Source of the DNA: Christiangramia gaetbulicola
GTDB taxonomy: Bacteria; Bacteroidota; Bacteroidia; Flavobacteriales; Flavobacteriaceae
Direction of reading: 5' to 3'
NCBI RefSeq assembly: GCF_003054225.1
Contig: NZ_QBKQ01000004.1
Coordinates: forward strand, 1-64,000
Length of the DNA stretch: 64,000 nucleotides
Part shown: one piece after another, positions 46,032 to 63,119 of the stretch
Position numbering within the stretch: position 1 is the first letter of the stretch
How the letters are laid out: the number at the start of each line of letters is the position of its first letter
Made by a program: the position numbers and the translations under genes
The notes under the pieces: model-generated
What the model was told of the DNA's origin: nothing
Databases searched by the model: none
Seen by the model: only the letters and a program-made list of their open reading frames with translations

Positions 46032-46074
46032 TGATAATTATCATTATTCTTTAAAAAGGCCAGGGCTATTTTTG
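46032..46074 (+). promoter_or_regulatory. FNR-type box and promoter of hemN
   Basis: The perfect palindrome TGATAATTATCA (46032-46043) is followed after exactly 23 bp by TATTTTTG (46067-46074), an exact TAnnTTTG. The box would centre at about -41.5, as for a class II CRP/FNR activator. The start codon is 17 bp downstream. Confidence 0.85.
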
Positions 46075-46091
46075 ATCTCAAAATCAAGAAT

Positions 46092-47459
46092 ATGTTACCT
46101 TCAAAATTGATCGGGAAATATAACATTCCCGGACCTCGTTACACCAGTTATCCAACCGTACCTTATTGGGACGATAAGCAGTTTTCCTTAAAGGGATGGA
46201 AATCTTCTATTGTGAGAAGTTTTAATGAGAGCAATACTTCTGAAGGTATTAGTTTGTATATACATCTTCCCTTTTGTGAAAGCCTGTGTACCTTTTGTGG
46301 TTGTAATAAAAGGATCACCAAAAATCATGGAGTAGAAATTCCCTATATACGCTCTGTTATCAGGGAATGGGAAATGTATTGTGATCTTTTGGAAAAAAGA
46401 CCTCTTATAAAGGAATTACACCTGGGTGGAGGTACTCCCACCTTTTTTTCCGCGGAAAACCTTAGTTTGCTTATCAATGGAATATTTAGCCTGGCTCGTA
46501 AATCTGAGGATGCCGAATTGAGCTTTGAAGGACATCCCAATAATACAACTTTAGAGCATCTGGAAACCCTGGCAAGTCTTGGCTTTAGCAGGGTAAGTTA
46601 TGGTGTGCAGGATTATAATACAAAAGTACAGCAGGCCATCCATAGAATTCAACCTTTTGATAATGTAAAATCGGCTACTGAAAATGCACGGAAGGCAGGT
46701 TTTTCTTCGGTAGGCCATGATATCATTTTCGGACTTCCTTTTCAAACAAAAGAAGATATTATTCATACTATAAATAGGACCAAGGAATTAATGCCAGATC
46801 GTATTGCCTTTTATAGTTATGCCCATGTTCCGTGGATCAAAGGAAATGGTCAGAGAGGTTTTAAGGATGAGGATCTTCCTGGGGCAGAGGAAAAAAGAGA
46901 GCAATACGAAACCGGAAAGCAGATGTTGCTGGAGGCAGGATATGTAGAAATAGGGATGGACCATTTCGCCTTAAGATCTGATAGTCTCTTCAGGTCTGTA
47001 GAGAATAAAACCATACACCGCAATTTTATGGGGTATACCAGCTCTAAAACCCAGGCGATGATTGGCCTTGGAGTTTCAGCTATTAGTGACAGCTGGTATG
47101 GATTTGCTCAAAACGTGAAGGGAGTAGAAGAATATGAAAAACTAGTTAATGACGGAATCTTCCCTGTATTCCGCGGACATCTTTTAACAGAGGAAGATCT
47201 TATCATTAGAAAACATATTCTTAACCTCATGTGTAAATTTAAAACCTCATGGTATACCCGTCATGAATTTTTTACCGGGTTGCCAGATGTTTTGATCAGT
47301 TTAAGGGAAATGCAAAATGATGGCCTCATCGAAATAGACAGTAATTACCTGGTGGTAACCGAAAAGGGGAGGCCGTTCGTGAGGAATATCTGTATGGCTT
47401 TTGATCTTAGGCTGCAGAGGAATAAACCTGAAACCAAATTATTTTCAATGACGGTTTAA
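46092..47459 (+). CDS. hemN: Oxygen-independent coproporphyrinogen III oxidase
   Basis: A 455-residue radical-SAM enzyme that makes protoporphyrinogen IX from coproporphyrinogen III without oxygen. The 4Fe-4S/SAM motif is CESLCTFCGC (Cys62, Cys66, Cys69, plus Cys71), preceded by YIHLPFC; GGGTPTF follows at about residue 117, and the C-terminal HemN domain (RGHLLTEEDLIIR) is present. These mark true HemN rather than HemW. An FNR-type box upstream fits induction at low oxygen, which would supply haem for the cbb3 oxidase encoded at 63 kb. It converges with the LuxR-type gene. Confidence 0.95.
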   Translation: MLPSKLIGKYNIPGPRYTSYPTVPYWDDKQFSLKGWKSSIVRSFNESNTSEGISLYIHLPFCESLCTFCGCNKRITKNHGVEIPYIRSVIREWEMYCDLLEKRPLIKELHLGGGTPTFFSAENLSLLINGIFSLARKSEDAELSFEGHPNNTTLEHLETLASLGFSRVSYGVQDYNTKVQQAIHRIQPFDNVKSATENARKAGFSSVGHDIIFGLPFQTKEDIIHTINRTKELMPDRIAFYSYAHVPWIKGNGQRGFKDEDLPGAEEKREQYETGKQMLLEAGYVEIGMDHFALRSDSLFRSVENKTIHRNFMGYTSSKTQAMIGLGVSAISDSWYGFAQNVKGVEEYEKLVNDGIFPVFRGHLLTEEDLIIRKHILNLMCKFKTSWYTRHEFFTGLPDVLISLREMQNDGLIEIDSNYLVVTEKGRPFVRNICMAFDLRLQRNKPETKLFSMTV

Positions 47460-47500
47460 TATTCAACTTGTTTTGGTTATTAAATCAGGAAACTTTTGAG

Positions 47501-48259
47501 TCACTTCATATCAAAAGCATTCACATATTTACTTACGTCTGCAATAGACTTAATATTGAGTTTCTTTTTGATATTTTTCCAGTGTGTCCTCAGGGTTTCT
47601 ATGGAAATGAACAACTTATCGGCGACTTCCTGCTGCCTGAAACCCCTTGAAAAGATTACCATGATCTCCTTTTCTCTTTTGGTAAGTTTAGAATATTTAG
47701 AAATATTAGACTTTATAAAATCGTTTTCTTCGATGACATGACCAATAGATAAAAGCGTACTTGTAATATCCTGCGAGGGCCTTTTTATCTTAATTATGGA
47801 ATTGCCTTCTTCATCTACTCCTTCAAAAAGTATTTTGATTCTGGTGTTGTTCTTGGAATAGTCCCTATTGCCGTTTAACCACTGCCTGGCCTCATTTTCA
47901 GTTGCGAAATGCAGGGGATGAATAACAGAATTATCTTCTTCAAAATAATTCATAACGCTTAAGTGTACGAGAACGTCTTTTCCTACGACAAAAGCCACTT
48001 TTTCATTTCCAAAATTTACACAGGGGATATTCACATTTTCTTCGATCCACAAATGTGTCTCTAAATTTATTGGTAACTGAAAATTCTGCTGTAGCCAAAG
48101 TGTTTTGGAAGGACGATATTTCTCATATAGTCCAATGAATTCTACAAACTCCTCCTTCAATTTGGAGTAGCATTTTGGAGACTTTTTCCAAAATTGGACA
48201 AAGCAATCATTTTCTTTTTCAAAATTTATTTGAAGAAATTTACTTTCGTAAAGAATCAT
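47501..48259 (-). CDS. LuxR-type transcription regulator with unidentified N-terminal domain
   Basis: A 252-residue regulator. The C-terminal LuxR HTH covers about residues 185-250 (LTKREKEIMVIFSRGFRQQEVADKL, recognition helix ISIETLRTHWKNIKKKL). The N-terminal 170 residues look like a PAS-like mixed alpha/beta domain with no receiver Asp pocket. It converges with hemN (gap 41 bp) and diverges from deoC across 284 bp. That gap holds the deoC FNR box but no such box facing this gene. Confidence 0.85.
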   Translation of the reverse strand: MILYESKFLQINFEKENDCFVQFWKKSPKCYSKLKEEFVEFIGLYEKYRPSKTLWLQQNFQLPINLETHLWIEENVNIPCVNFGNEKVAFVVGKDVLVHLSVMNYFEEDNSVIHPLHFATENEARQWLNGNRDYSKNNTRIKILFEGVDEEGNSIIKIKRPSQDITSTLLSIGHVIEENDFIKSNISKYSKLTKREKEIMVIFSRGFRQQEVADKLFISIETLRTHWKNIKKKLNIKSIADVSKYVNAFDMK

Positions 48260-48439
48260 TGCGTTTCCATATTTAACCGTATTTCCGGAAGGTAAAGCTT
48301 AAATAATAAATAGTATTGAAAAATACAAATGTTTTAGCAAATGGGAATAATACTGAACAAAATTTTCGAGTTACAATGTTTTAATAATGTTCAGGAAAGT
48401 TCAGTGATGGGATTTTGAAGAGCCAAATTTCAGGTTGAG

Positions 48440-48482
48440 TGATAATAGTCATATTTAAGAGCATATAGAGGCTATAATTTTG
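48440..48482 (+). promoter_or_regulatory. FNR-type box and promoter of deoC-deoD
   Basis: TGATAATAGTCA (48440-48451) is followed after exactly 23 bp by TAATTTTG (48475-48482), an exact TAnnTTTG. The spacing is identical to that at hemN and the cbb3 genes. The leader to deoC is about 55 nt. Confidence 0.82.
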
Positions 48483-48543
48483 AACAGGTTCCCGGTCATC
48501 CTTTTTAAAGCCTTAATTTTAAAGACCGGAAAAACAATTTTTT

Positions 48544-49191
48544 ATGAAAGATTTGAAGAATTATATAGATCATACCTTACTGGCTGCAACTGCTACAGAG
48601 TCTCAGATCAGGAATTTATGCGAGGAGGCAAAAGAGCATGGATTTTATGCCGTTTGCGTCAACAGCAGTTATGTTGCCCTGGCCAAAAACTTTCTGAAAG
48701 ATTCGGAAGTAAAACTTGCAGCGACCATAGGTTTTCCGCTAGGCGCAGCTTCAGCCTCTTCAAAAATTCAGGAAGCGAAAAAGGCCGTTCTAGATGGAGC
48801 AGGAGAGATCGATATGGTTATAAATATTGGCTTTTTTAAAGATAGAAAGTATGATGAGGTTAAGTCTGAAATCCAGGAAATAAAAAAAACCATAGGGAAT
48901 AACCTTCTTAAGGTCATCATCGAAACCTGTTATTTGACCGATGATGAAATAGAAAAAGTCAGCGAATTGGTGATGCAGGCAGGAGCAGATTACGTGAAAA
49001 CCTCTACAGGTTTTGGAACTCGCGGGGCCAGCCTTAAAGACGTTCAGATCATGAAGAAGGTTGTGGGAGATAAGATAAAGATCAAAGCATCTGGAGGCAT
49101 AAGAGACGCTGAAACCGCCCGGCAATATATAGAACTTGGCGTTTCCAGGATTGGAACTTCATCGGGTATTAAAATCATTTCTAATAAATAA
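48544..49191 (+). CDS. deoC: Deoxyribose-phosphate aldolase
   Basis: A 215-residue class I aldolase that splits 2-deoxyribose-5-phosphate into acetaldehyde and glyceraldehyde-3-phosphate. It starts with the family segment YIDHTLL. The Schiff-base lysine is Lys152 in YVKTSTGFGTRGA, and a second conserved Lys is in KIKASGGIRD. It is 9 bp before the purine nucleoside phosphorylase gene, so the pair salvages deoxynucleosides. The FNR-type promoter suggests use of deoxyribose as a fermentable carbon source when oxygen is low. Confidence 0.96.
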   Translation: MKDLKNYIDHTLLAATATESQIRNLCEEAKEHGFYAVCVNSSYVALAKNFLKDSEVKLAATIGFPLGAASASSKIQEAKKAVLDGAGEIDMVINIGFFKDRKYDEVKSEIQEIKKTIGNNLLKVIIETCYLTDDEIEKVSELVMQAGADYVKTSTGFGTRGASLKDVQIMKKVVGDKIKIKASGGIRDAETARQYIELGVSRIGTSSGIKIISNK

Positions 49192-49200
49192 ATCCAGGTT

Positions 49201-49899
49201 ATGAGTATTCATATTGAAGCAAAAAAAGGAGAAATAGCAGAAACAGTTTTACTCCCCGGAGATCCTTTGCGAGCAAAATGGATCGCAGAAACCTTTCTTG
49301 AAGATAGTGTTTGCTATAATGATATCAGGGGAATGCTCGGTTATACGGGGACTTATAAAGGCAGGAGGGTTTCTGTCCAGGGCACCGGAATGGGAATTCC
49401 CTCGGCCATGATCTATTGTCATGAACTCATAAAGGAATATGGGGTGAAGACCCTGATTAGGGTTGGAAGTGCCGGAGCATTTCAACCAGACCTTAAATTA
49501 ATGGATATCGTTATCGCGATGTCTGCTTCCACAAATTCATCGGCGAACCGGGATATTTTTAATGGAGCCGACTATGCACCTACGGCAAATTTTGATCTTT
49601 TGATGAAAGCTGTAGAGTATGCCCAGGAAAATCAAATTGATTTTACGGCAGGGAATGTTCTTTCATCTGATATTTTCTACGACGATGATCCCGATTATTA
49701 TAAGAAATGGGCAAAATATGGTGTTCTTTGTGCTGAAATGGAAACTGCCGGGATTTATACCCTTGCGGCCAAATTCGGGGTGAAGGCTTTATCTATACTC
49801 ACAATTTCAGATTCACTGGTGAACGGTGAAGAAGTTTCTTCAGAAATAAGAGAGAAAAAGTTAAGCGAAATGGTAAAGATCGCACTCAACACCTTTTAA
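49201..49899 (+). CDS. deoD: Purine-nucleoside phosphorylase, DeoD type
   Basis: A 232-residue hexameric-type phosphorylase that converts purine (deoxy)nucleosides and phosphate to free base and (deoxy)ribose-1-phosphate. Motifs are [18 protein letters not shown] near the start, [20 protein letters not shown] and [17 protein letters not shown], with the conserved Asp in ISDSLVNGE. It works with DeoC; no phosphopentomutase gene lies beside them. It converges with the DUF6544-like gene, leaving a gap of 2 bp. Confidence 0.95.
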
Positions 49900-49901
49900 G
49901 A

Positions 49902-50984
49902 TTAACCGTGTAGATTGTATTTTACTTTCTGTAGCTCAAATTTTCCATACACGAAATCATCCTCGGGATAATGCCATATGGCTTCCCCGTAACTAGCTAA
50001 ATTGTATCCATCAAAGTTTGCGTAACCGCCGACCGGTGTAGAGAACATGAACTGCTTGTTCACATCTACCGAATACCGGTCGTTAGAGAAAAAGTTGATG
50101 AGCTGTCCCTTTTCGTTGAACTCCAGCAGGGCAGAAACCATCTTTCCGTTATTTGAGAATTTCACTCTTACGGTATTGTCGCCGATTTCTTCCCAGCTGA
50201 ATTTTTTGTCTATAAGTGCGCCAGGTGCAAAAATGCAAATATCATTTAGCCAGGTAACCATTTCAGAGATCAGCAATTCCATGGATTGAATGTCTACTAC
50301 TTTAAAAATAGAAAACGGTTTTATAACCATACTGGCGATGGTGCCGGTATACTTATGGTAGCCTTTTGTTGGTATTCCCCTGAATATGGCTTTCATGAAA
50401 AAATACCTTGCCGGTGATTTAATGGTATTCAACTGTTCAGACCTAAACCTGAACCATTTCTTATTCTTTTCCCTCATTTCCCCGGAAAATTTCAATTGGA
50501 AATTTTCAATTTTTGACTTTCCGAGAAAACCTGACGAACGAATGTATTTTTGCACGAGAACGGGAAGAGCCTGCAGGTCTTTTTCTTCAATGGTCTGGCT
50601 CACTCCGGTATTGGCTAAAATAGCTTTTACCTTGTCTTCCTTGTACTTGTTTTCAAATTTCCATCCGGCCATAGAGAGTATCGCCACAACCAGAATTATC
50701 AAATTGAAAATAGATCCAAACTTAGCCTCCTCCCAGTTGAGAATAATAAGCACTTGAGAAGTTATGATCACAGGGATGGAAATAAGTATCCAGGCTGGTT
50801 TTCTTAACAGGAATAGAACAATAGTGACGAGCAGTAGAATAGATACCAGTAACCACAAAATACCCTGGGTTGTTGAGATCATTCTTGATCCCGGAGTGAC
50901 TTCTATCCATTGGTTTGCCTTTGCGAATCCAATTAAGTGAATTAGCAAATGCAGAAAAAGTATCACTATAAACAGGATTCTCAT
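49902..50984 (-). CDS. DUF6544-like membrane protein
   Basis: A 360-residue protein with three or four N-terminal spans (about residues 3-22, 40-60, 67-85, 90-108) and a soluble C-terminal domain with LPVLVQKYIRSSGFLG, the FRSEQ segment and a late GYNLASYGEAIWHYPEDDF. This resembles the DUF6544 family, whose role is unknown. It follows the universal stress gene on the same strand after 50 bp and may share its FNR-type promoter. Confidence 0.7.
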   Translation of the reverse strand: MRILFIVILFLHLLIHLIGFAKANQWIEVTPGSRMISTTQGILWLLVSILLLVTIVLFLLRKPAWILISIPVIITSQVLIILNWEEAKFGSIFNLIILVVAILSMAGWKFENKYKEDKVKAILANTGVSQTIEEKDLQALPVLVQKYIRSSGFLGKSKIENFQLKFSGEMREKNKKWFRFRSEQLNTIKSPARYFFMKAIFRGIPTKGYHKYTGTIASMVIKPFSIFKVVDIQSMELLISEMVTWLNDICIFAPGALIDKKFSWEEIGDNTVRVKFSNNGKMVSALLEFNEKGQLINFFSNDRYSVDVNKQFMFSTPVGGYANFDGYNLASYGEAIWHYPEDDFVYGKFELQKVKYNLHG

Positions 50985-51034
50985 AGCAATTGGAATTAAA
51001 AGTCAACAGATGCTTTTTCTGTAAAGACCTGAAG

Positions 51035-51868
51035 TTAGATCTTAAAGGTCACCACCGGTATATCAGCATGGTTGGCAACATCCTCTCCAATACTGCCGTA
51101 GAAGAAATGACCCAGGCCTTTTCTACCATGCGTTGGAATGCCTATAGCATCTATATCATGTTCATTACAGTAATTATAGATTCCTTTCTCTGCGGTATAA
51201 TCATCATAAAAAATGACATCATCCTGGAATTTCTTATTGTCCATTCCAACATCTACAAGAAAATTATAGGCCTTTAATTCCATTTCTTTAGTGCTCATAA
51301 ATTTCTCGGGAATATTGATGAAAAGTATCTTGGGTGTTACATTGAATACCTTGAAAAAGTTTCTGGCTCTCATGAAAGAAGTTAACGTGTCCAGAGCAAA
51401 ATCTGTAACAAATACCGCTTTCTCTATTTTAAAATCGGTAATCTTTTGTTTGATCACAAGTACCGGAATATTAGATGTTCTAACCACCTTTTCGGTATTA
51501 GAACCAACAAAGACTTCCTTGACTCCGGCACTTCCATGAGATCCCATTACAATTAGATCTGCCTCGTATTCCTGAGCAACTTCATTGATCTCGTTAAATA
51601 CTTTATGAGATTTCACCGCCTGGCTAACATCGATACCTTTTAGATAATCTTTATCCAGAAATTTATCAAACCGCTGTTTGGTAAGCTTCATAAAATAGAT
51701 GGCGTTAAAAACTTCCTGTTGCTCATCTTTAGTAAGATAAGATTCATTTAGCCCCATCATATGGACTACAATAATTTCAGCATCCTGTTTTTTAGCGATG
51801 CTGGCAGCTACTTCGAGGGCATATTCAGAATGTTCTGAAAAATCTACGGGTACAAGGATAGTTTTCAT
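51035..51868 (-). CDS. Universal stress protein, tandem UspA domains
   Basis: A 277-residue protein with two Usp domains. The first starts MKTILVPVDFSEHSEYALEVA and ends in VMGSHGSAGVKEVFVGSNTEKVVR, a complete ATP-binding G-2x-G-9x-G(S/T) pattern; the second ends GIPTHGRKGLGHFFYGS. I chose the ATG at 51868, since a TTG at 51895 lies inside the promoter. Such proteins support survival under low oxygen or energy limitation. The FNR-type box at 51924-51935 supports that role here. Confidence 0.92.
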   Translation of the reverse strand: MKTILVPVDFSEHSEYALEVAASIAKKQDAEIIVVHMMGLNESYLTKDEQQEVFNAIYFMKLTKQRFDKFLDKDYLKGIDVSQAVKSHKVFNEINEVAQEYEADLIVMGSHGSAGVKEVFVGSNTEKVVRTSNIPVLVIKQKITDFKIEKAVFVTDFALDTLTSFMRARNFFKVFNVTPKILFINIPEKFMSTKEMELKAYNFLVDVGMDNKKFQDDVIFYDDYTAEKGIYNYCNEHDIDAIGIPTHGRKGLGHFFYGSIGEDVANHADIPVVTFKI

Positions 51869-51892
51869 GATCAAGGTTTTATCTTCTAAATT

Positions 51893-51935
51893 CAAATCTA
51901 TGATTCGTAATGCTTAAAAAACATGACATAAATCA
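51893..51935 (-). promoter_or_regulatory. FNR-type box and promoter of the usp gene at 51035-51868
   Basis: The box 51924-51935 reads TGATTTATGTCA on the minus strand, then exactly 23 bp later TAGATTTG (51900-51893), an exact TAnnTTTG. It is the same geometry as at hemN. Confidence 0.82.
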
Positions 51936-52017
51936 TTAATTTAAAGATAAGTAGCGTGGTTTTTAGCGAATCCTTAAGAGGGTTTTGAATTTCTTATAGC
52001 TAAATTGTAAAGAAAAA

Positions 52018-52242: not shown

Positions 52243-52309
52243 ATCTGTCTTAAATCATGTTTTTTCTAAAAAAGATTTTACCTTTAGTTGCTATTAAACA
52301 AAACTTAAT

Positions 52310-53560
52310 TTGCGAGATTCTTTTTTAGATAATACAGATGCTTTCAACCTTTTATTTCAATCGGCATCAGAAGGTATCATTGTGGTGAATTCAGATCAGA
52401 TCGTGGTTGCTGCAAATACAGCCGCAGAACAGATGTTTGGGTACAGCACGGGCGAACTCAACAATCAGCATCTCGATCTTCTTATTCCAAAGAAATATCA
52501 CCATAACCATCATAAGCATTTTAATAAGTTCCTGGACCATAGTGAAAAGCGGCAAATGGGACATGGTCGTGACCTGCACGGGGTTAAAAAGGACGGTTCC
52601 TTATTTCCTGTAGAAGCCGGGCTAAACCCTTTCAAGATGAATGGGAAAGAATACGTGATGTCTTTGATAATAGATATCACCGTTAGAAAAGCTACTCAGA
52701 AGCAGATCGAAGAACTTAATAACCGCCTGGAAGACAAGATCAAAATAAGGACGCAGGAGTTGAGGGAAAGCATAGATAATTTGCAGAAATTGAACCTTGA
52801 CCTTGAAGATGAGATCCAGAAAAGAAAGAAGGCTGAAAAAAAGATCAAGGATGCACTGCAGAAGGAGAAGGAATTAAGTGAATTGAAGACTAAATTTCTA
52901 TCCCTGGTATCCCATGAGTTTAAAACTCCCTTGAGTGGGATCCTTACCTCGGCAACTTTAGCTGAAAAATATACCAAAGCAGAGCAGCAGGAGAAAAGAG
53001 AAAAACATTTACTTACCATTCGCAACAAAGTTCATTACCTCAATAATATTCTTAATGACTTTTTATCTATCGAACGCCTGGATAGCGGTAGGGGACAATA
53101 TAAATTTGCTCCTTTCAGACTAAGGAGACTTATTAACGAAGTGATCTATAATGCGAATATTACCCTTAAGGACGGGCAGGAGATCGCCTATCCAAAAGAT
53201 ATAGAAGATATCGAGCTTTATATGGATGAAAAGATCCTTGAGCTTATTTTGTCGAATCTGCTGGGGAATGCGATAAAATATTCTCCGGAAAACACCCTGA
53301 TTAATTTTTGGGTCGAATTTGAAGGAGAATTCATTGTTTTTGAAGTTGAAGATCAGGGAAGGGGAATCCCTGAAAAAGATCAGAAGCATATTTTTGAAAG
53401 ATATTTCAGGGCAGAAAATGCCTTACTGGACCAGGGAACCGGGATTGGTTTGAATATTGCCAAAACTCATTTAGAGAATCTCGGAGGGACCATTAAATTT
53501 GAAAGTAAAGAGAACGAAGGGACCACTTTTACTATTAAGGTTCCTGTGAATAAATCATAA
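52310..53560 (+). CDS. PAS-domain sensor histidine kinase, FixL-like (soluble)
   Basis: A 416-residue kinase without membrane spans. A PAS domain (about residues 8-125), a charged coiled coil (130-195), a HisKA domain with phospho-acceptor His202 in VSHEFKTPLSG and a HATPase domain (NLLGNAIKYSP, EDQGRGIP, GTGIGLNIA) are all present. The PAS segment aligns with the FixL haem pocket: Y-x3-His67 matches the proximal His200 of Bradyrhizobium FixL, and Arg87 in MGHGR, 20 residues later, matches Arg220. Haem and oxygen binding are therefore plausible but not proven, since non-haem PAS domains can share these residues. The TTG start at 52310 is needed for an intact PAS domain. The response regulator follows 28 bp later. 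Confidence 0.85.
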   Translation: MRDSFLDNTDAFNLLFQSASEGIIVVNSDQIVVAANTAAEQMFGYSTGELNNQHLDLLIPKKYHHNHHKHFNKFLDHSEKRQMGHGRDLHGVKKDGSLFPVEAGLNPFKMNGKEYVMSLIIDITVRKATQKQIEELNNRLEDKIKIRTQELRESIDNLQKLNLDLEDEIQKRKKAEKKIKDALQKEKELSELKTKFLSLVSHEFKTPLSGILTSATLAEKYTKAEQQEKREKHLLTIRNKVHYLNNILNDFLSIERLDSGRGQYKFAPFRLRRLINEVIYNANITLKDGQEIAYPKDIEDIELYMDEKILELILSNLLGNAIKYSPENTLINFWVEFEGEFIVFEVEDQGRGIPEKDQKHIFERYFRAENALLDQGTGIGLNIAKTHLENLGGTIKFESKENEGTTFTIKVPVNKS

Positions 53561-53588: not shown

Positions 53589-54632
53589 ATGAAGAAATTA
53601 TTGCTAATCGAGGATGACGTAACGGTAAGAGAGAATACCGCAGAATTGCTGGAACTTTCAGATTACGACGTGATCACGGCCTCTAACGGAAGACAAGGAA
53701 TTGAAAAAGCAAAACAGGAAGTGCCAGACATCATTGTTTGCGACATCATGATGCCAGAGTTGGATGGCTACAGCGTTTTGGAAGCATTAGGAAAAAACCC
53801 GGAAACCCTGAATATTCCGTTTATTTTTCTTTCGGCAAAGACCGAGCATAAGGATATTCGTAAAGGGATGGACCTGGGAGCAGACGATTATCTCACCAAA
53901 CCTTTTGAAGAAGAAGAGTTATTAAGTGCCATAGAAAGCAGGCTGGCCAAAGTTGCCATTCTTAATTCCCATAGAAAAGAGCAAAGTACCCCTAAGCAGG
54001 AAGAAAAACTCAAGGACCTGGAAGATCTTCGTGAGATCTTTAGCCAGCAGGAGCTGCAGTATTTTAAAAAGGGGGAGGCCATCTATGAAAAGGATAAACA
54101 TGCCAATTATTTCTACCTGATAAAAAGAGGAGTGGTGAAGGCACATAGAATGGATAACCAGGGAAAGGAACTAATTACCGAGCTGTATAAAGAAGATGAT
54201 TTCTTCGGAAATCACGCAAATGATCCGCAGTCATCTTATGAAGATTATGCCACCGCTATGGAAGATACCCAGCTGTATGCGATGTCCCGGGAAGAATTTC
54301 AAAAAATACTTTCAGAAAATTCCAGGATCGCCATGCAACTGGTAGAGGTTCTCAATAAGAACCTTTCTGAACTTAAGGAGCATTTAATGGAAATGGCCTA
54401 CGGTTCAGTAAAAAAGAAAACCGCTAATACCATTTTGCTTTTTGCTGAAAGGATCAAAAAGCATCCTTTAAAAAGCATCAGGATTTCCAGGGCAGACCTT
54501 GCCGGGGTTGCGGGTATGGCGCCAGAGAGTCTTATAAGAACTCTTTCAGAATTCAAAAAAGAAGGGCTCATCGAGATAGAGGGGCGCAATATTAAGTTGC
54601 TGGATTCAGAGGCGCTGAAGAAGATCAATTAG
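53589..54632 (+). CDS. Response regulator fused to CRP/FNR-type DNA-binding module
   Basis: A 347-residue regulator. A receiver domain (residues 1-125) has acidic residues Glu8, Asp9 and Asp10, phospho-acceptor Asp52 and Lys104. A cNMP-binding-fold domain follows (about 145-270; YFKKGEAIYEKDKHANYFYLIKRG) and then a CRP-type winged HTH (about 275-347). The recognition helix PESLIRTLSEF keeps Glu313 and Arg317 at the positions that contact the GA of the half-site in CRP and FNR. FNR-type Fe-S cysteines are absent, so oxygen would be sensed by the adjacent kinase. It combines FixJ-like input with FixK-like output in one chain and is the leading candidate to bind the eight nearby TGAY-N4-RTCA boxes. 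Confidence 0.9.
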   Translation: MKKLLLIEDDVTVRENTAELLELSDYDVITASNGRQGIEKAKQEVPDIIVCDIMMPELDGYSVLEALGKNPETLNIPFIFLSAKTEHKDIRKGMDLGADDYLTKPFEEEELLSAIESRLAKVAILNSHRKEQSTPKQEEKLKDLEDLREIFSQQELQYFKKGEAIYEKDKHANYFYLIKRGVVKAHRMDNQGKELITELYKEDDFFGNHANDPQSSYEDYATAMEDTQLYAMSREEFQKILSENSRIAMQLVEVLNKNLSELKEHLMEMAYGSVKKKTANTILLFAERIKKHPLKSIRISRADLAGVAGMAPESLIRTLSEFKKEGLIEIEGRNIKLLDSEALKKIN

Positions 54633-54660: not shown

Positions 54661-54703
54661 TGATTTTCATCATTTTTTCGGTTGGATACTTGGCCTAATT
54701 TCG
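54661..54703 (+). promoter_or_regulatory. FNR-type box and promoter of the usp gene at 54723
   Basis: TGATTTTCATCA (54661-54672) is followed after exactly 23 bp by TAATTTCG (54696-54703), one mismatch from TAnnTTTG. The box starts 28 bp after the response regulator stop. Confidence 0.78.
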
Positions 54704-54722: not shown

Positions 54723-55490
54723 ATGAACGTTTTAATTCTAACCGATTTTTCAGAAACTTCCGGGAACGCAGGTAGGTATGCTGTAGATTTTCTTCAGAAA
54801 ACTGCGGCAAACTTTTATCTATTGAATATTCATAATTTCAATTTCAATAGAGCAGCCAGCGATCATCTGGAGACCGAGCTGGTTGGTACTCTTAGTCAGT
54901 TACAGAGCGGTATAAAAACACTGAAAAAATACACCGGGAACAAAGAGCATAAATTCCATACGATACTTTCATCAGAGAATTTGATCGGGGCGGTCAGAAA
55001 AGCGCTCATCGATAAGAAAATAGACCTGATCTTTATTGGGGCGGTGAGCCAGGATGAGCACGTTCACCCAATTTTGGGAGATCATGCCTACGATATTGTA
55101 AGAAAGATAAAATGTAATATCATCGCGGTTCCTACCGGATGCACTTACCAGAACTTAAAAAAAGCTGTTTTTCCTGTAGATCATGCGATCCTATCTGGCG
55201 AAGAAAAGGACCGGATACTCGATAATCTCGATTATTTGAAAACTTCAGAATTTACTTTGCTCGAGATCAAGGATGGTGATATTGAATATCCTGAGCCAGT
55301 AAACGATAAGGTCCCTTTTAAAACTCCTGTTCCATTTACCAGGGAGTTGTTCAGGGATATTCAGAAGCAGTTTGATATTATCTTCATAATTGGCAAGAAC
55401 CTCACTATTTGCGACAGGTTACTTCATACCGAATATGGCTTTTCAGCTCATATGAACGTGGAGATACCCATCTTTGTCTACCACGGATAG
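54723..55490 (+). CDS. Universal stress protein family (UspA-like)
   Basis: A 255-residue protein with one recognisable Usp domain at the N-terminus (MNVLILTDFSETSGNAGRYAVDFL; VGAVS at the end of strand 4 near residue 105) and a diverged second half. The glycine-rich ATP motif is weak (GAVSQDEHVHPILGDHAYDIVRK), so nucleotide binding is uncertain. Its FNR-type promoter and position after the regulator suggest a low-oxygen stress role. It is distinct from the tandem Usp at 51 kb. Confidence 0.8.
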   Translation: MNVLILTDFSETSGNAGRYAVDFLQKTAANFYLLNIHNFNFNRAASDHLETELVGTLSQLQSGIKTLKKYTGNKEHKFHTILSSENLIGAVRKALIDKKIDLIFIGAVSQDEHVHPILGDHAYDIVRKIKCNIIAVPTGCTYQNLKKAVFPVDHAILSGEEKDRILDNLDYLKTSEFTLLEIKDGDIEYPEPVNDKVPFKTPVPFTRELFRDIQKQFDIIFIIGKNLTICDRLLHTEYGFSAHMNVEIPIFVYHG

Positions 55491-55684: not shown

Positions 55685-56074
55685 TTAGAATTTCACCTGC
55701 CGGCTCTGGTAGATCCTTAAAAATAGGTGGGTGGACATTTTTCGGGCATTGTTCTTTAGTCGCTGGGCCATTTCGCCTTCAAAAAGTTCATCGATGGTTT
55801 GGAACCAGAGGTTCATCCAGATACCAAAATGATATTCGGAAATAGTGTGATCATGTTCCTGATCCACTTTCACATGAGCCATGGCGGGATTACCTTTGAA
55901 ACTGCCGGTAAAAAAAAGGTTACTTTCCCAAAAATCGGTGAGCTTTTCTAAATGCGTATCCCAATCCTGGATACTATTATTGAAAAAGTAACCTATCTCT
56001 TCATTTTTTCTAACCTTGCTGTAAAAGCTTACCACCAGGTGATTTATGTCGTTGCGGTTTTCAAGATCTCTCAT
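55685..56074 (-). CDS. Group III truncated haemoglobin
   Basis: A 129-residue globin of the short 2/2 fold, group III type: FYSKVRKNEEIGYFFN near the start, then FWESNLFFTGSFKGNPAMAH, with His67 the likely haem ligand, and HFGIWMNLWFQTIDELF. Group III members bind oxygen or NO and often serve under nitrosative stress or microaerobiosis. It is the second gene of a two-gene unit behind an FNR-type promoter, 6 bp after the small membrane-protein gene. Confidence 0.9.
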   Translation of the reverse strand: MRDLENRNDINHLVVSFYSKVRKNEEIGYFFNNSIQDWDTHLEKLTDFWESNLFFTGSFKGNPAMAHVKVDQEHDHTISEYHFGIWMNLWFQTIDELFEGEMAQRLKNNARKMSTHLFLRIYQSRQVKF

Positions 56075-56080: not shown

Positions 56081-56362
56081 TTAGAGGATATTGATAAGAA
56101 TAAAAGTTATGCTTACAAGCAAACTTATGATAAGGGAATTGAATACGAATTTTGATTTTAGTTGAGCCAGAACAGAGGCATTGAACCACATACACACTAC
56201 CACGACCAAACCAAGCTGGATCATTTCAGCAATTTCATGTCCGTTCATAAGGATCAACATTGCAGCGATGGCTCCAAGACAGCTGGAAACTAAAATTCCT
56301 GTAGATGCTCCGGCGTAATAATCACGACTAAATTCTGATAGTTGTTTTTGATAAATGTTCAT
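56081..56362 (-). CDS. Small membrane protein upstream of truncated haemoglobin
   Basis: A 93-residue protein with three hydrophobic segments (about residues 18-38, 46-66, 73-92). It is the first gene behind the FNR-type promoter at 56388-56430 and is followed 6 bp later by the globin gene. No family is recognised; co-expression suggests a respiration or NO-linked role. Confidence 0.7.
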   Translation of the reverse strand: MNIYQKQLSEFSRDYYAGASTGILVSSCLGAIAAMLILMNGHEIAEMIQLGLVVVVCMWFNASVLAQLKSKFVFNSLIISLLVSITFILINIL

Positions 56363-56387
56363 TTTTTCTGATTTTTTAATTTCAGAT

Positions 56388-56430
56388 CAAATGTACAATC
56401 AGGTCTCTTTTTGAAATATGACCGTAGTCA
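56388..56430 (-). promoter_or_regulatory. FNR-type box and promoter of the truncated haemoglobin unit
   Basis: The box 56419-56430 reads TGACTACGGTCA on the minus strand, a perfect TGAC/GTCA palindrome. Exactly 23 bp later TACATTTG (56395-56388) is an exact TAnnTTTG. The start codon is 25 bp downstream. Confidence 0.88.
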
Positions 56431-56533: not shown

Positions 56534-56565
56534 CTTCTTAGTGCGCTTGTAAAAAGGTTGGATCT

Positions 56566-57843: not shown

Positions 57844-57909
57844 AGAATTTTTTTTCTTGTTTGTCAATTTTTCAAAGCCATAGAATTTAATGAAATTCCG
57901 AGACTTTAT

Positions 57910-58476
57910 CTAATTGGAGATCTTAAGATCGAATTGAACCTCTATCTCTTCATCGACTTCAATAAGTCCCAGGGCTTTCTTTGGAGGTTCCAGGCCAAAA
58001 TCACGGATATTCATTTCGAACTTACCAATAAAGCGATCGTTAGCTGTTTGTACGGGTAGACTATAGGTCTTGGTTTTTCCCGCGAGATGAACCGTAATAA
58101 AGGCTTTTACAAATTCTGTAGATACGAACTCGATTTTATCCAGTTCTATGATTATCTCCGGGAACTTATCACACATTAGAAGGTCCTGGAAGTCTGCATT
58201 CATTCTTTTATGGCCGCAATCGAATCCTTTGGTAAGTAAATTAAGCTTCAGATTATTGAAATTGATAAAGCCTTCATCCTGTATATATCTAATATTTCTC
58301 TTTTGAGTGATGAGGTCGATATCGAACCGGCAATCAAATTTGTTAACATTGGTTTTTCCAGATATGATCAATTCGCTATCTGGCAATATCATAATATTCT
58401 CTTTTTCGAAATTCTTTTGAGCATTAAGGATTAAAGAGAAAAACAATAATCCCGATAAAATTAGAAGTCGTTTCAT
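57910..58476 (-). CDS. YceI-like periplasmic protein (copy 2, diverged)
   Basis: A 188-residue protein with a signal peptide (cleavage near LNAQK) and the YceI lipocalin-type strand pattern: ELIISGKTNVNKFDCRFD, FDCGHKRMNADFQDLL, FPEIIIELDKIEF and the terminal FGLEPPKKALGLIEVDEEIEVQFDL, quoted here as separate short segments. YceI proteins bind polyisoprenoid lipids or quinone-like molecules. It differs clearly from the copy at 59876-60454. The start is 92 bp after the porin-like gene, across a strong hairpin. Confidence 0.78.
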   Translation of the reverse strand: MKRLLILSGLLFFSLILNAQKNFEKENIMILPDSELIISGKTNVNKFDCRFDIDLITQKRNIRYIQDEGFINFNNLKLNLLTKGFDCGHKRMNADFQDLLMCDKFPEIIIELDKIEFVSTEFVKAFITVHLAGKTKTYSLPVQTANDRFIGKFEMNIRDFGLEPPKKALGLIEVDEEIEVQFDLKISN

Positions 58477-58506
58477 GATCTTGAAAATTGAGAAGATTAG
58501 AAATAA

Positions 58507-58552
58507 TTCGGGCAGAGTTTCTTAAGTTTTTCAACTAGAGACTCCGCCCGAA
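58507..58552 (-). terminator. Strong intergenic hairpin between porin and YceI copy 2
   Basis: The 12-bp stem TTCGGGCAGAGT / ACTCCGCCCGAA with one mismatch lies 17 bp after the porin stop. A T run after it is weak, so it may be an attenuator or an RNA-processing/stability site rather than a full terminator. Confidence 0.55.
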
Positions 58553-58568
58553 GATCATTATTCAAACA

Positions 58569-59852
58569 CTAGAAACTAATAGCCGCTTCCAGAGTGAATC
58601 CTTTGAAGTTACCTTCGTAGTGGATGTCACTTGATGGGTAGTCTTTATAGTCCTGGTTCACATATTCAGCTTTCATAAGGATGTTTTTGGTCATGAACCA
58701 TCCCGCACCAAGCTGGAATCTGTTCACATTGATGTCCTCACCAGATTTTAGTTCACCGCTCACAGTGTTGTAACGGGTTCCTATGAAAAGGTCGTCGTTT
58801 CCTCCAAATCTGTAGATAAGCTCACCAGATAACTGAGTATAGTTTCTGTCATCAGATTCATTTCTGTCTCTACCGCTAGAGGTTTCAAAGATCCCGAAGA
58901 ATTCAAGTCCGCCATACTTAAGGAAAGGGTTGAACATCAAAGAGGTCATTTCATTTCTGAAAGAAGTAGCAATACGACCTGCTCTAAAACCATCACCTAC
59001 ATCATCTCCGTCAAGGTTGGTTCCCTGCATAACGTTGTAGTAACGTGTACCTGCACGGTCTCCATTGTAAAGGTAGTTTCCTCTACCATAGTTGCTTGGG
59101 CTGTGGAATAAAGATCCGGTTAGTCTGAATCGCAGACCGTCTTCAGCCTGGTTATCATATCCAAATTTAGCAAGCCATGAAGGGCTGGTAGATCCATCAC
59201 CGGCAGTAGACTGGTTCAGTTTACCATTTGTAAAGCCAACCATACCTAACCATGGGCCACTAAAGTAATACGCTTCAACACCAACCTCTGTTGTGAAACT
59301 GTCCATAAGGTAGTTTCCAACAAATGGATTATATACTGCCATGGCGTTGTCTGTTCTTCTAAAATGTGCATCACCGTAGTTGTTCTCCATGTGGCCAATT
59401 TTTATTCTCATGTGATCCATTAGACCTTCAGCGAAACCTTCGCTAACGAAATCGAGTTTATCGATCTGGATGTAACCACCTTTTACGTAAGCTTCAGTGT
59501 GGTGTTGAGAAGACAGGTAAGTTCTTAAGTGCATTCTCACCCCGTCATAAAGTGCTACGTCAAGGTCAAGGTTCGCTGTTGCCAGGTTAAAGTTACCTTC
59601 AAGATCCTGAAGCGTTATAGCGCTATTGGAATTTTCATGAGAAAGATCCTGGAACTGGATGGTTGAAGCACCACCGACTCTTACATGTAATCCGTCGAAA
59701 GTAGAGACGGTGTCTTTAGGAGCTTCGAATTGATTGATGCCTCTTTGGTCGCGATAACGGAAGTTATCCAGGTCTCTCTGAGTTTGTGCCATCGTTGGCA
59801 GCGCCATTAATAAAAAGAGGGCTAGACTGAGTATTTGCGTAATAGTTTTCAT
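58569..59852 (-). CDS. Outer-membrane beta-barrel porin-like protein
   Basis: A 427-residue protein with a signal peptide (cleavage near TMAQT), many alternating amphipathic strands (DGVRMHLRTYLSSQHH, DDLFIGTRYNTVSGEL) and a terminal Phe (LEAAISF), the hallmark of barrel insertion. It resembles the Bacteroidota porin-like proteins with sparse similarity to phosphate-selective porins. It lies 23 bp after YceI copy 1, in an operon driven by an FNR-type promoter. The solute is unknown. Confidence 0.78.
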   Translation of the reverse strand: MKTITQILSLALFLLMALPTMAQTQRDLDNFRYRDQRGINQFEAPKDTVSTFDGLHVRVGGASTIQFQDLSHENSNSAITLQDLEGNFNLATANLDLDVALYDGVRMHLRTYLSSQHHTEAYVKGGYIQIDKLDFVSEGFAEGLMDHMRIKIGHMENNYGDAHFRRTDNAMAVYNPFVGNYLMDSFTTEVGVEAYYFSGPWLGMVGFTNGKLNQSTAGDGSTSPSWLAKFGYDNQAEDGLRFRLTGSLFHSPSNYGRGNYLYNGDRAGTRYYNVMQGTNLDGDDVGDGFRAGRIATSFRNEMTSLMFNPFLKYGGLEFFGIFETSSGRDRNESDDRNYTQLSGELIYRFGGNDDLFIGTRYNTVSGELKSGEDINVNRFQLGAGWFMTKNILMKAEYVNQDYKDYPSSDIHYEGNFKGFTLEAAISF

Positions 59853-59875
59853 CGTTTTTAATTTTAAGGTTGAGG

Positions 59876-60454
59876 TTATTTTTTAAAGTGAGATTCAAAT
59901 TTTACCACCACATCTTCACCGGTTTTAATGGTTCCGAACATTGCGGTTGGAGCTTCCACTCCGTAATTGGTCATGTTAATTTTGTGTTCACCGGTAAGAA
60001 CCAGTTCATTATTACTGTTTTTAAGTTTGAAATTGAGATTGATATCTTTAGTAGTTCCAGCAATCATAAGACTTCCGGTAGTTTTTACTTCGAAGTTATC
60101 TCCAGAGATCTGATTGATCCCATTCACCTTTTTTAATTTATAGGTGATGTTCTTGTACTCATCTGTATTAAGGGCAGCGTAGGTGTTTTTATCCATTCCG
60201 CTTTTGCCACTCATAAGACTTTCAGCTTTAACAGTAAATTCCAGTTTCTCGATGTCAACAAGTTGACCATTATCAAATTCAGTGATAAGGATTCCTTCCT
60301 TGTTCTCTGCTTCGATGGTCCAGTCGTGAATATTAGAAGTACCATCTATAATTAGATTAGAAGCTTCATTATTCAGTTTGTAGGATTGAGCATTCATTCC
60401 AAAGCTTAGAAGAAGTGCTACTGTTAACATCCGTAAAATTCTGTAAGGTTTCAT
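59876..60454 (-). CDS. YceI-family periplasmic protein (copy 1)
   Basis: A 192-residue protein with a signal peptide (cleavage near MNAQS). Clear YceI features are LIIDGTSNIHDWTIEA near residue 34, LMSGKSGMDKNTYAALNTDEYKNITY quoted in part as DKNTYAALNTDEY, and GVEAPTAMFGTIKTGEDVVV near the end. It is the first gene behind the FNR-type promoter at 60479-60522. A lipid- or quinone-carrier role in low-oxygen respiration fits the family and context but is inferred. Confidence 0.88.
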   Translation of the reverse strand: MKPYRILRMLTVALLLSFGMNAQSYKLNNEASNLIIDGTSNIHDWTIEAENKEGILITEFDNGQLVDIEKLEFTVKAESLMSGKSGMDKNTYAALNTDEYKNITYKLKKVNGINQISGDNFEVKTTGSLMIAGTTKDINLNFKLKNSNNELVLTGEHKINMTNYGVEAPTAMFGTIKTGEDVVVKFESHFKK

Positions 60455-60478
60455 ATCGGTTACATTTTTTAATCAGTA

Positions 60479-60522
60479 CAAAGTTGCACTACGAATGCAA
60501 GGGAAATAATGATGAATATCAG
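60479..60522 (-). promoter_or_regulatory. FNR-type box and promoter of the YceI/porin/CoA-transferase operon
   Basis: The box 60511-60522 reads TGATATTCATCA on the minus strand. The best -7 match, AACTTTTG (60486-60479), lies 24 bp later, one more than at the other seven sites, and differs from TAnnTTTG at the first base. Box-to-box distance to the divergent ccoI site is 78 bp. Confidence 0.68.
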
Positions 60523-60588
60523 GTTTTTTAAACTTTTGAAGTGGCCGAAACCCGCGATAACGTTTTAGTTTGGAAAAAAAGCATTCCC

Positions 60589-60631
60589 TAACCGTGGTCA
60601 TATTTTCAAAAAATTGAAATGCTCAGTTTTG
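60589..60631 (+). promoter_or_regulatory. FNR-type box and promoter of ccoI
   Basis: TAACCGTGGTCA (60589-60600) has one mismatch from TGAC-N4-GTCA. Exactly 23 bp later comes CAGTTTTG (60624-60631), one mismatch from TAnnTTTG. The start codon is 23 bp downstream. Confidence 0.75.
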
Positions 60632-60654
60632 TGTCCTTATAGTTATTTATAGAT

Positions 60655-63060
60655 ATGGAACTATGTTTTCATTGCGGCGAAGAATGCCTGGACGAGACAA
60701 TATTATATTCAGAAAAGACCTTTTGCTGCTCAGGCTGCAAGACTGTTTTTGAAATATTGAACAGTAATGACCTTACCTACTATTATGATCTTGAAAAAAA
60801 CCCGGGGATATCCCCTAAGATCAGGGAAGGTAAATATGATTACCTGGAAAATTCAGAGATCATGGGAAAACTGCTCGAGTTTGACCATGGCACTACTCAG
60901 ATAGTATCTTTTGATATACCTTCTATTCATTGCAGTTCCTGTATCTGGATCCTGGAGAACCTTCATAAATTGCATAAAGGAATAAAAAGTTCGCAGGTAG
61001 ATTTTCCAAAAAAGAAGATCAGGTTGAGTTTTTCTTCGGAAGAGATCAGCCTCAAGAACCTGGTGCTTTTACTTTGCCGTATTGGCTACGAACCAAATAT
61101 TTCCCTGGATAATTATGAAGAAAGGGAGTCTAATGTAGACCGAAGCCTGATCTATAAATTAGGTGTGGCCGGTTTTGCCTTTGGGAATATCATGTTCCTT
61201 TCCTTTCCTGAATATTTTGAAATAAATGAGTTCTGGCTGGACCAGTTCAAGCATTTGTTCCGCTGGCTGATGTTCAGCTTTTCACTGCCGGTGGTATTTT
61301 ATTCGGGGAGAGACTATTTTACTTCGGCTTATAAAGGTTTAAGGTCTGGTATCCTTAATATAGATGTGCCTATAGCGCTGGGAATCCTGGTCCTTTTTTT
61401 AAGAAGTACTGCAGAAATTGTCCTGGATCTGGGCACCGGATTTTTTGACAGCCTTAGCGGACTCGTTTTCTTCCTTTTACTCGGAAAATTTTTTCAGCAG
61501 AAAACCTATTCCTTCCTGTCATTTGAGAGGGATTATAAATCCTATTTTCCTATTGCCGTGACCCGTGTATCTACTGAAGCCGGAAAAATTACGGAAGAAC
61601 AAATACAGGTTTATAAGATCCAGAAAGGCGACCGGATCATTATAAGGAATGAAGAACTCATTCCCATGGACGCCATTTTAATAAAGGGAGATGCCAGTAT
61701 AGATTACAGTTTTGTTACCGGTGAAGCAGAACCTGTTGCTAAAGTGAGTGGAGAGAAATTATTTGCGGGAGGCAGGCAGCAGGGTGGTATTATTGAGATT
61801 GAAGCATTAAAACCCGTGAAGCAAAGCTATCTTACCCAGTTATGGAGCGATGAGGTTTTTAGCAAGGATAAGAATTCTGCTTTTCAGAACCTTACTAATA
61901 AAATCAGTAAACGGTTTACTTATGCCGTATTAAGCATAGCGGTTCTTTCAGCCATCTTTTGGATGTTCTATGATGCTTCTAAAGCCTGGAATGTTTTCAC
62001 GGCAGTACTCATTATTGCATGTCCCTGCGCTATTGCTCTGGCTGCGCCTTTTACTTTGGGGAACATGCTACGCATATTTGGTAAAAATCAACTTTATCTT
62101 AAGGATACGAATATTATAGAGCAGACCGCTAATATAGATACAGTGGTTTTCGATAAGACGGGAACCATTACCGCGAATGACAAAAGCAGGATCGAATATG
62201 AAGGCCTGGAATTGACCGAAGAAGAAAAAAGCCTTCTGGGAGGTAGTCTCCGTGCTTCTAATCATCCATTGAGTAGGTCACTTTACAATATTCTCGATAA
62301 GAACAATATTTCTACCCCTGAAGATTTTACCGAGCATACCGGCCTGGGATTGGAAACCAGTTACAGGGATCTTAATTTGAAGATAGGTTCTTCTACTTTT
62401 ATGAATAGCTCTGAGATCCTGGTGCCGGAACGGCCTGCAGAGAAAAAGAACGAAAAAACTTCAGTGCATATAAGTTCCAATAATCAGTATAAAGGATGTT
62501 TCAGCTTTCATAATTCTTACAGGGAAGGGCTTTCTGAATTATTCAAAGAACTTTCAACAGACAGGCAGTTGATCATACTTTCCGGAGATAATGATGGGGA
62601 GCGAGAAAGATTAAGTCGCCTGGTGCCAGAAGGTACCAGGATGTATTTCGATCAAAAACCTGGAGATAAACTTCAGTTCATCAAAGAACTTCAAAAACAA
62701 GGGAATAAGGTAATGATGGTTGGTGATGGCCTTAACGATGCTGGGGCCCTGGCGCAAAGCGATGTGGGTATCGTTATTTCTGAAGACATCAATGTGTTTT
62801 CTCCTGCCTGTGATGGTATCCTGGATGCAAAACGATTCAGAGACCTGGGAAGCTTTTTCAAACTTTCAGAAAGATCTATCAAGGTGATAAAACTGAGCTT
62901 CTTGCTGTCTCTTTGTTATAATCTAATTGGTCTGACATTTGCCGTTTCGGGAAATCTAATGCCGGTAGTAGCGGCGATCCTTATGCCCTTAAGTTCCATT
63001 AGCATCGTGATATTCACCACCCTGGCCACACAATTTCTTTCAAAAAAGCTGAAAAATTAA
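60655..63060 (+). CDS. ccoI: Copper P-type ATPase for cbb3 oxidase assembly (CcoI/FixI)
   Basis: An 801-residue P1B ATPase that supplies copper for cytochrome cbb3 maturation. The N-terminal Cys-rich domain (Cys4, Cys7 and the CCSGC cluster at residues 24-28) precedes a heavy-metal domain with CSSC, as in FixI/CcoI. The transmembrane metal motif is CPC (Cys456, Cys458), the phosphorylation site is DKTGT (Asp500), and SNHPLSR and GDGLNDAGAL are present. It is followed by ccoS and ccoN, which fixes the assignment. It has its own FNR-type promoter, separate from the one before ccoS. Confidence 0.95.
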   Translation: MELCFHCGEECLDETILYSEKTFCCSGCKTVFEILNSNDLTYYYDLEKNPGISPKIREGKYDYLENSEIMGKLLEFDHGTTQIVSFDIPSIHCSSCIWILENLHKLHKGIKSSQVDFPKKKIRLSFSSEEISLKNLVLLLCRIGYEPNISLDNYEERESNVDRSLIYKLGVAGFAFGNIMFLSFPEYFEINEFWLDQFKHLFRWLMFSFSLPVVFYSGRDYFTSAYKGLRSGILNIDVPIALGILVLFLRSTAEIVLDLGTGFFDSLSGLVFFLLLGKFFQQKTYSFLSFERDYKSYFPIAVTRVSTEAGKITEEQIQVYKIQKGDRIIIRNEELIPMDAILIKGDASIDYSFVTGEAEPVAKVSGEKLFAGGRQQGGIIEIEALKPVKQSYLTQLWSDEVFSKDKNSAFQNLTNKISKRFTYAVLSIAVLSAIFWMFYDASKAWNVFTAVLIIACPCAIALAAPFTLGNMLRIFGKNQLYLKDTNIIEQTANIDTVVFDKTGTITANDKSRIEYEGLELTEEEKSLLGGSLRASNHPLSRSLYNILDKNNISTPEDFTEHTGLGLETSYRDLNLKIGSSTFMNSSEILVPERPAEKKNEKTSVHISSNNQYKGCFSFHNSYREGLSELFKELSTDRQLIILSGDNDGERERLSRLVPEGTRMYFDQKPGDKLQFIKELQKQGNKVMMVGDGLNDAGALAQSDVGIVISEDINVFSPACDGILDAKRFRDLGSFFKLSERSIKVIKLSFLLSLCYNLIGLTFAVSGNLMPVVAAILMPLSSISIVIFTTLATQFLSKKLKN

Positions 63061-63076
63061 AACAAGGTCCTAAATC

Positions 63077-63119
63077 TGACAATGGTCATTTTTTACATGC
63101 GACCCTCAAAATACTTTTA
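63077..63119 (+). promoter_or_regulatory. FNR-type box and promoter of ccoS-ccoN
   Basis: TGACAATGGTCA (63077-63088) is a perfect TGAC/GTCA palindrome, followed after exactly 23 bp by TACTTTTA (63112-63119), one mismatch from TAnnTTTG. The start codon of ccoS is 18 bp downstream. Confidence 0.88.

Follow-up and report, generated by a model that had tools for sequence, protein, structure and literature searches.

A fixed 23-bp spacing between palindromic boxes and promoters, and a candidate receiver-CRP activator, in a low-oxygen gene island of Christiangramia gaetbulicola

Introduction

Which regulator would read a set of palindromes that stand before respiration genes in the flavobacterium Christiangramia gaetbulicola, and is their regular distance from the promoter anything but an accident? 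The question arises from a 64,000-nucleotide (nt) stretch of DNA (the window; positions 1 to 64,000 of contig NZ_QBKQ01000004.1, forward strand), in which an original prediction had placed eight FNR-type boxes at a fixed distance from -7 elements and had read them as one compact low-oxygen regulon. To our knowledge, oxygen regulation has been little mapped in the Bacteroidota, a phylum prominent in marine and gut habitats. In C. gaetbulicola, many low-oxygen respiration genes are grouped with the gene of what is likely to be their own regulator, and a simple sequence rule for predicting low-oxygen promoters across Flavobacteriaceae genomes, together with a two-gene regulator, makes the question directly testable. 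The evidence presented here supports one set of class II promoters serving low-oxygen genes. Their activator is quite likely to be the receiver-CRP regulator encoded at 53589-54632, which would be switched by phosphorylation from a FixL-like kinase (52310-53560) at low oxygen.

A fixed spacing between box and promoter

Throughout, a box is TGAY-N4-RTCA, a -7 element is TAnnTTTG, and the gap is the number of base pairs (bp) between the two. All eight of the predicted sites are present. On the strand facing the gene, each has a -7 element at gap 23 with no more than one mismatch, the element being exact at four of them (46032, 48440, 51924 and 56419). Seven of the eight box coordinates were exact as first given; the sixth box lies at 60510-60521 rather than 60511-60522, and therefore has a gap of 23 and not the 24 bp that had been ascribed to it through a coordinate off by one base. 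The fixed spacing is thus borne out more strongly than had been claimed. The window contains eight perfect boxes, all within 46.0-63.1 kb, seven of which are phase-locked at gap 23 (at most one mismatch in the -7 element; four exact). The remaining perfect box, at 60264, was outside the predicted set, lies within a YceI gene and is not followed by a -7 element at gap 23. Site 60589, where box and -7 element each carry a single mismatch, is the weakest of the predicted eight. The single canonical TTGAY-N4-RTCAA site of the window (60263-60276) also falls within the YceI coding region.

Could so regular a spacing arise from accidental palindromes in AT-rich promoters? TAnnTTTG-like words are indeed common in the AT-rich DNA of the window. 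Yet for the 16 oriented boxes of the window, 7 of which have the element at gap 23 (4 exactly), 20,000 dinucleotide shuffles of the flanks gave a mean of 0.21 and a maximum of 4, and 200 shuffles of the whole window an average of 0.09 and a maximum of 2. The organism's own genome has 15 cases of a box followed by an exact TAnnTTTG at gaps of 8-38; 7 have gap 23, of which four fall in the window and three outside it, and reversed-pattern controls gave 2 and 3 matches summed over all gaps. The background, taken from 18 stretches of the same genome (360 kb; 20 sampled stretches minus those chosen for known matches), held no exact and one single-mismatch case at gap 23. For the genus (24 genomes), the exact gap-23 pattern had 93 matches versus 1 for the reversed control, and among 147 parsed rows gap 23 accounted for 43 of 104 from the same genus and 12 of 43 from other families. 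The 80 best loci of relatives (best 80 of 576 matches; mostly Flavobacteriaceae, with several metagenome-assembled genomes (MAGs), one of them from the Chitinophagaceae) contain 533 perfect boxes in 1.51 Mb; gap 23 is represented by 136 exact and 285 one-mismatch -7 elements, and each of 55 other gaps by 0-6 and 4-28, respectively. Hence the scan of genome and relatives that had been suggested alongside the original prediction places gap 23 far above chance in both. Chance, already thought unlikely at the outset, is refuted by the excess of gap 23 over other spacings, shuffles and reversed controls, and can for practical purposes be dismissed.

Site consensus and promoter class

Around the boxes of 421 unique sites there are flanking preferences that played no part in site picking: T follows the box in 94 % and A in 2 %, C or A precedes it in 84 %, and the sequence further upstream is A-rich. 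Between box and -7 element, positions 20 to 35 carry 0.02-0.15 bits of information. In a flavobacterium with mapped transcription starts, TAnnTTTG occupies -12 to -5 (PMC9723704), and this location combined with a gap of 23 gives a box centre of -41.5. The spacing, which is shared by many promoters, thus supports class II promoters with the activator box at the predicted position of -41.5, as the original prediction had supposed.

Gap 23 is not the only spacing. In the order, 113 of 246 genomes have an exact box and -7 element at gap 23 with T directly following the box, and eight longer gaps (24-31) pooled match in 147; there is a visible share at gap 24, and gap 23 is therefore not the sole spacing outside the genus. 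A second peak, at gap 31, comprises 11 of the 104 parsed same-genus rows and looks like one conserved promoter. The gap-31 case of the C. gaetbulicola genome is the palindrome TGATAATTATCAT with TACTTTTG (G000:C1:1197156-1197206; L010:1501-1551), which sits between hemA and an AraC-type regulator gene (both named by eye), with similar gap-31 matches in several congeners.

The receiver-CRP regulator and its kinase

Between two usp genes of the island lie, both on the plus strand, the genes for a PAS histidine kinase (52310..53560), which by eye has no membrane part, and for a receiver-CRP response regulator (53589..54632), in which Pfam Response_reg, cNMP_binding and HTH_Crp_2 mark a receiver (REC), a cNMP-binding-like part and a Crp-type helix-turn-helix. 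The nearest named relatives of this fusion protein, among the matches listed, are from Christiangramia lutea and Gramella sp. KN1008. Directly 3' of its stop codon stands the box 54661-54672. That arrangement recurs: in the 80 best loci the kinase gene adjoins the regulator gene in 77, and a gap-23 site occurs within 300 nt 3' of the regulator stop in 72 of the 79 with enough sequence. Within the genus, window included, such a site follows the stop in 18 of 19 loci.

The residues expected of a phosphorylated DNA-binding protein are intact in an alignment of 78 rows (77 loci plus the window). Asp9, Asp52 and Lys104 of the receiver pocket are present in all 78 and Asp10 in 76, and with this acidic pocket, phospho-acceptor Asp and Lys the fusion would be classed as a two-component response regulator. 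In the recognition helix, Glu313 and Arg317 are likewise in every row, and Ile316, which we take to occupy the position of Ser in FNR, is in 76. CRP itself has an Arg that binds the cAMP phosphate; within columns 205-223, a region matched to CRP by eye, no column has Arg in more than 2 of the 78 rows, so that the fusion does not appear to carry the residue that would mark a cAMP receptor protein. The only universal cysteine is Cys51, and judged from the alignment the fusion lacks the [4Fe-4S] cysteines of FNR.

The PAS domain of the kinase is closest to the haem-PAS domains of FixL and DosP. Its best match in the PDB is FixL (1d06, E 1e-15), and its 16 PDB matches comprise seven FixL, four DosP, one haem PAS sensor, one yddU, one multi-sensor kinase and two blue-light photoreceptors. 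His67, presumably aligned with the haem-ligand His of FixL, is kept in 71 of 78 rows, and the domain resembles the haem PAS domains with which FixL-type sensors bind oxygen.

Because of the adjacency of the kinase, the box after the stop codon, the invariant receiver residues and a Glu...Arg recognition-helix pair that it alone has among the CRP-like proteins found in the genome (the other helices having been read by eye), the fusion is the best candidate for the activator. In the proposed mechanism, low oxygen would render the kinase (52310-53560) active, the kinase would phosphorylate the receiver of the REC-CRP protein (53589-54632), and the phosphorylated protein would bind [CA]TGAY-N4-RTCAT and contact RNA polymerase from -41.5, in class II fashion, leading to transcription of the cbb3 oxidase genes, hemN, the usp genes, the haemoglobin gene and others. 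We infer binding of the box by the fusion, phosphotransfer to it from the kinase, haem, and oxygen as the signal; the sites, their spacing, the gene neighbourhood and the phospho-acceptor and recognition residues are legible in the DNA and its translation.

Losses within the genus and evidence against the fusion

Natural losses lend the fusion further support, in that two congeners without the regulator are also without ccoNO. Of 22 near-complete congeners, regulator and ccoNO are both present in 19 and both missing in 2, and the regulator occurs on its own in 1 (Fisher p 0.013, with no correction for relatedness; for two of the 22, frame length was the sole basis for scoring the regulator). 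In the genome of G001, one of the pair that lacks both, neither regulator nor ccoNO was found, and at the expected place of the island a shortened deoD adjoins a short ccoI remnant (L211:9100-9560), an apparent deletion scar of the island; the boxes of hemN and deoC are kept. Congeners G022 and G020 gave no hemN match at E <= 1e-80.

Several observations weigh against the fusion as an oxygen-responsive activator of these boxes. Congener G020 keeps it but is without ccoNO, a hemN match or a box after the regulator, and no gap-23 box faces the kinase gene of the island, so that autoregulation was not seen. Boxes of this kind, at this spacing, are also present in genomes that yielded no fusion, and the box is therefore not fusion-specific. 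Arg87 of the kinase, which presumably corresponds to the distal Arg of FixL (BjFixL Arg220), a signalling residue, is present in just 54 of 78 rows. Finally, the genome encodes at C2:644.8 kb a CRP-like protein with a C-x5-CC cluster and cytochrome bd oxidase subunit I as its neighbour (G000:C2 ~642-645.5 kb; L214:26-3441), and these clustered cysteines near a cytochrome bd gene may denote a separate redox regulator.

The variation at Arg87 bears on the nature of the signal, since the REC-CRP protein might bind the boxes in response to redox state, nitric oxide, energy state or another PAS ligand instead of oxygen. Haem PAS domains can bind several gases, and ytfE-type and nosZ-type genes are among those preceded by sites. 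The core targets, on the other hand, are a cbb3 oxidase, hemN and a haemoglobin, and the nearest solved PAS domains come from oxygen sensors; a signal other than oxygen is for these reasons considered unlikely.

Other CRP-family candidates and the FNR question

If not the fusion, which protein? HTH_Crp_2 has four matches in the genome, namely the fusion, two stand-alone CRP-like proteins and, below the cut-off, an Lrp/AsnC protein. The stand-alone proteins, at C2:368.9 kb and C2:644.8 kb, belong to the CRP family and so could in principle use the boxes, the latter having the cysteine cluster and the cytochrome bd neighbour described above. By eye, both recognition helices lack the Glu; no perfect box occurs in the 5-kb stretches around either gene; and a relative of the C2:368.9 kb protein persists in the island-less G001 and G022. 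Use of the boxes by one of these two proteins is consequently rated highly improbable.

A classical [4Fe-4S] FNR, the activator type implied by the original prediction, would be a natural reader of boxes whose core is common to the FNR consensus and whose targets are typical of FNR, and in relatives without the fusion a stand-alone CRP/FNR-type protein whose N-terminus has a CxxC is encoded next to ccoI. That part of the prediction is nevertheless not upheld. Over the whole genome the canonical TTGAY-N4-RTCAA is not enriched (14 sites, against 24 matches to the reversed pattern as a rough control), the box is followed by T and seldom by A, and the N-terminal cysteines of FNR are missing from every CRP-like protein found in the genome, Cys51 being the fusion's sole universal cysteine. 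Neither stand-alone protein among the four HTH_Crp_2 matches has the recognition-helix Glu, a search that a diverged protein could escape. The FNR label on the boxes is probably wrong, and binding by a classical FNR is very unlikely.

Breadth in the Bacteroidota and exchange of the regulator

The kinase/receiver-CRP pair and the box co-occur across the Bacteroidota. Of 395 genomes sampled from the phylum, 56 encode full-length relatives of the fusion, and at E <= 1e-30 the fusion is matched in 33 of the 246 genomes of the order (29 over full length), a survey that scored the best 8 candidates of each genome and may therefore have missed some fusions. An exclusive tie between box and fusion was entertained and dropped, the box-23 pattern occurring in 113 of these 246 genomes and the fusion in 33.

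Further afield, 20 picked loci from other families of the class (L227-L246; 16-20 kb each) have the kinase adjacent in 18, cco genes in 11, hemN in 6 and either of these in 12. Gap 23 is again prominent there, with 6 exact and 14 one-mismatch cases, and a peak at gap 45 holds 9 exact and 7 one-mismatch cases; any other gap has at most 1 and at most 4. In 15 of the 16 gap-45 places a second box (at most 2 mismatches) stands at +22, as opposed to 5 of 272 at other offsets, and the peak reflects paired boxes 22 bp apart, the proximal one at gap 23. Examples are L237:6393-6426 and L239:11216-11249, with predicted positions of -63.5 and -41.5. Within the 80 best loci, gap-45 places look paired in just 4 of 28.

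Genus g17, perhaps Flavobacterium, supplied five loci from genomes that yielded no fusion. A gap-23 box (at most one mismatch) precedes ccoNO in all five and ccoI in three, and it precedes hemN in the three whose sequence includes the hemN promoter. Beside ccoI, four of the five (L222, L223, L224 and L226) encode a stand-alone CRP/FNR-type protein of approximately 226 amino acids (aa), with an N-terminal CxxC, a Glu...Ile-Arg helix and no receiver domain, which is 27-33 % identical to the CRP part of the fusion; the fifth stretch starts 159 nt before ccoI, too short to show the neighbour. Given the same boxes and such a protein in fusion-less relatives, the DNA code seems to be kept as the regulator changes. 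The chances are about even that the Bacteroidota have one conserved low-oxygen cis code (box, 23 bp, TAnnTTTG) under which the sensor is exchanged, a stand-alone CRP/FNR-type protein in some and a haem-PAS kinase with a receiver-CRP fusion in others, many fusion promoters of other families having boxes paired 22 bp apart (-63.5 and -41.5). Sensor exchange under a constant promoter code, if true, would be a clean case of regulatory rewiring.

Relation to known systems

In the FixL-FixJ-FixK cascade of rhizobia, a haem-PAS kinase, a receiver and a CRP-family activator control targets that include a cbb3 oxidase and fixGHIS-type genes. The island resembles it in having a haem-PAS-like kinase, a receiver, a CRP-family protein, and cbb3 oxidase and fixGHIS-type targets, and differs in that receiver and CRP-type part are joined in one protein. 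The FixJ-to-fixK transcription step is therefore absent here, and the island would represent a shortened form of the cascade. FNR/Anr class II promoters have a TGAY-N4-RTCA core centred at -41.5 and low-oxygen targets, as do the promoters of the island; unlike them, the box here is without the outer TT..AA of the FixK/FNR consensus and is followed by T instead of A, the -7 element is the TAnnTTTG of the Bacteroidota, and the fusion has no Fe-S cysteines and has Ile in place of FNR's recognition-helix Ser. Compared with the g17 system, box, 23-bp gap and core genes are alike, but the g17 protein has a CxxC and no receiver.

In Flavobacterium psychrophilum under oxygen limitation, cbb3 oxidase and haem biosynthesis genes are induced, a response that shares cbb3 oxidase, haem genes and TAnnTTTG with the island (PMC9723704). 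Unlike the present case, its main text contains neither 'crp' nor 'response regulator', and no activator, box or spacing was seen in the available passages (PMC9723704). For MAGs of Flavobacteriales and other groups, CRP/FNR homologues have been predicted to be MalR-like and carbon-responsive (PMC8510549). These share family and order with the protein described here, but the signal proposed is carbon, and a receiver domain goes unmentioned in the available part of that text (PMC8510549). In the open-access full texts among the matches listed, no description of a receiver-CRP fusion or of the box in Bacteroidota was recognised; subscription literature lay outside the search, and no claim is made that either is unpublished.

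Target genes and neighbouring features

The low-oxygen regulon proposed at the outset is upheld by its targets (hemN, ccoI, ccoS-ccoNO, usp and truncated haemoglobin genes and, elsewhere in the genome, nosZ and ytfE). In what follows, each -7 element stands 23 bp from the box with which it is given. The gene hemN (46092-47459; TIGR00538 above cut-off) is preceded by the box 46032..46043 (+), TGATAATTATCA, with TATTTTTG at 46067-46074, and an exact gap-23 site precedes it in all six congeners in which hemN was found (eight asked). The deoC-deoD genes (48544-49899, both by NCBIfam) follow the box 48440..48451 (+), TGATAATAGTCA, with TAATTTTG at 48475-48482. On the minus strand, the first usp gene (51035-51895; Pfam Usp) has the box 51924..51935 (-), TGATTTATGTCA, with TAGATTTG at 51893-51900; the second (54723-55490) lies 3' of the box 54661..54672 (+), TGATTTTCATCA, with TAATTTCG at 54696-54703 (one mismatch).

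One box, 56419..56430 (-), TGACTACGGTCA on the minus strand, with TACATTTG at 56388-56395, is shared by a 93-aa open reading frame (ORF; 56081-56362) and the gene of a group III truncated haemoglobin (55685-56074), which matches 2ig3 (E 2.8e-12) and had no match in the Pfam search. Genes for YceI, a 427-aa ORF, a second YceI and an acetyl-CoA hydrolase-transferase run from 60454 down to 56566 under one promoter, whose box 60510..60521 (-) reads TGATATTCATCA on the minus strand, with CAACTTTG at 60479-60486 (one mismatch); the 427-aa ORF, earlier called a porin, had no match in the Pfam search. The heavy-metal (copper-type) P-type ATPase gene ccoI (60655-63060) follows the box 60589..60600 (+), TAACCGTGGTCA (one mismatch), with CAGTTTTG at 60624-60631 (one mismatch). 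The last box, 63077..63088 (+), TGACAATGGTCA, with TACTTTTA at 63112-63119 (one mismatch), precedes ccoS (from 63138; identified from its translation only) and ccoNO (from 63335), beyond which lie ccoP, ccoG and fixH. Beyond the window, the three further exact gap-23 sites of the genome precede a third usp gene, a cytochrome c/fasciclin-domain/nosZ-type cluster and a ytfE/ric-type gene, targets whose physiology is of the same kind as that of the island.

Between hemN and deoC lies a LuxR-type regulator gene (47501-48259) that has no gap-23 box of its own and is kept in congeners G001 and G013. At the other end of the window, a tandem array of five 288-bp units (40-1466; 89 % matches) overlaps the start of the ORF at 217-2952, the protein repeats being 96 residues long.

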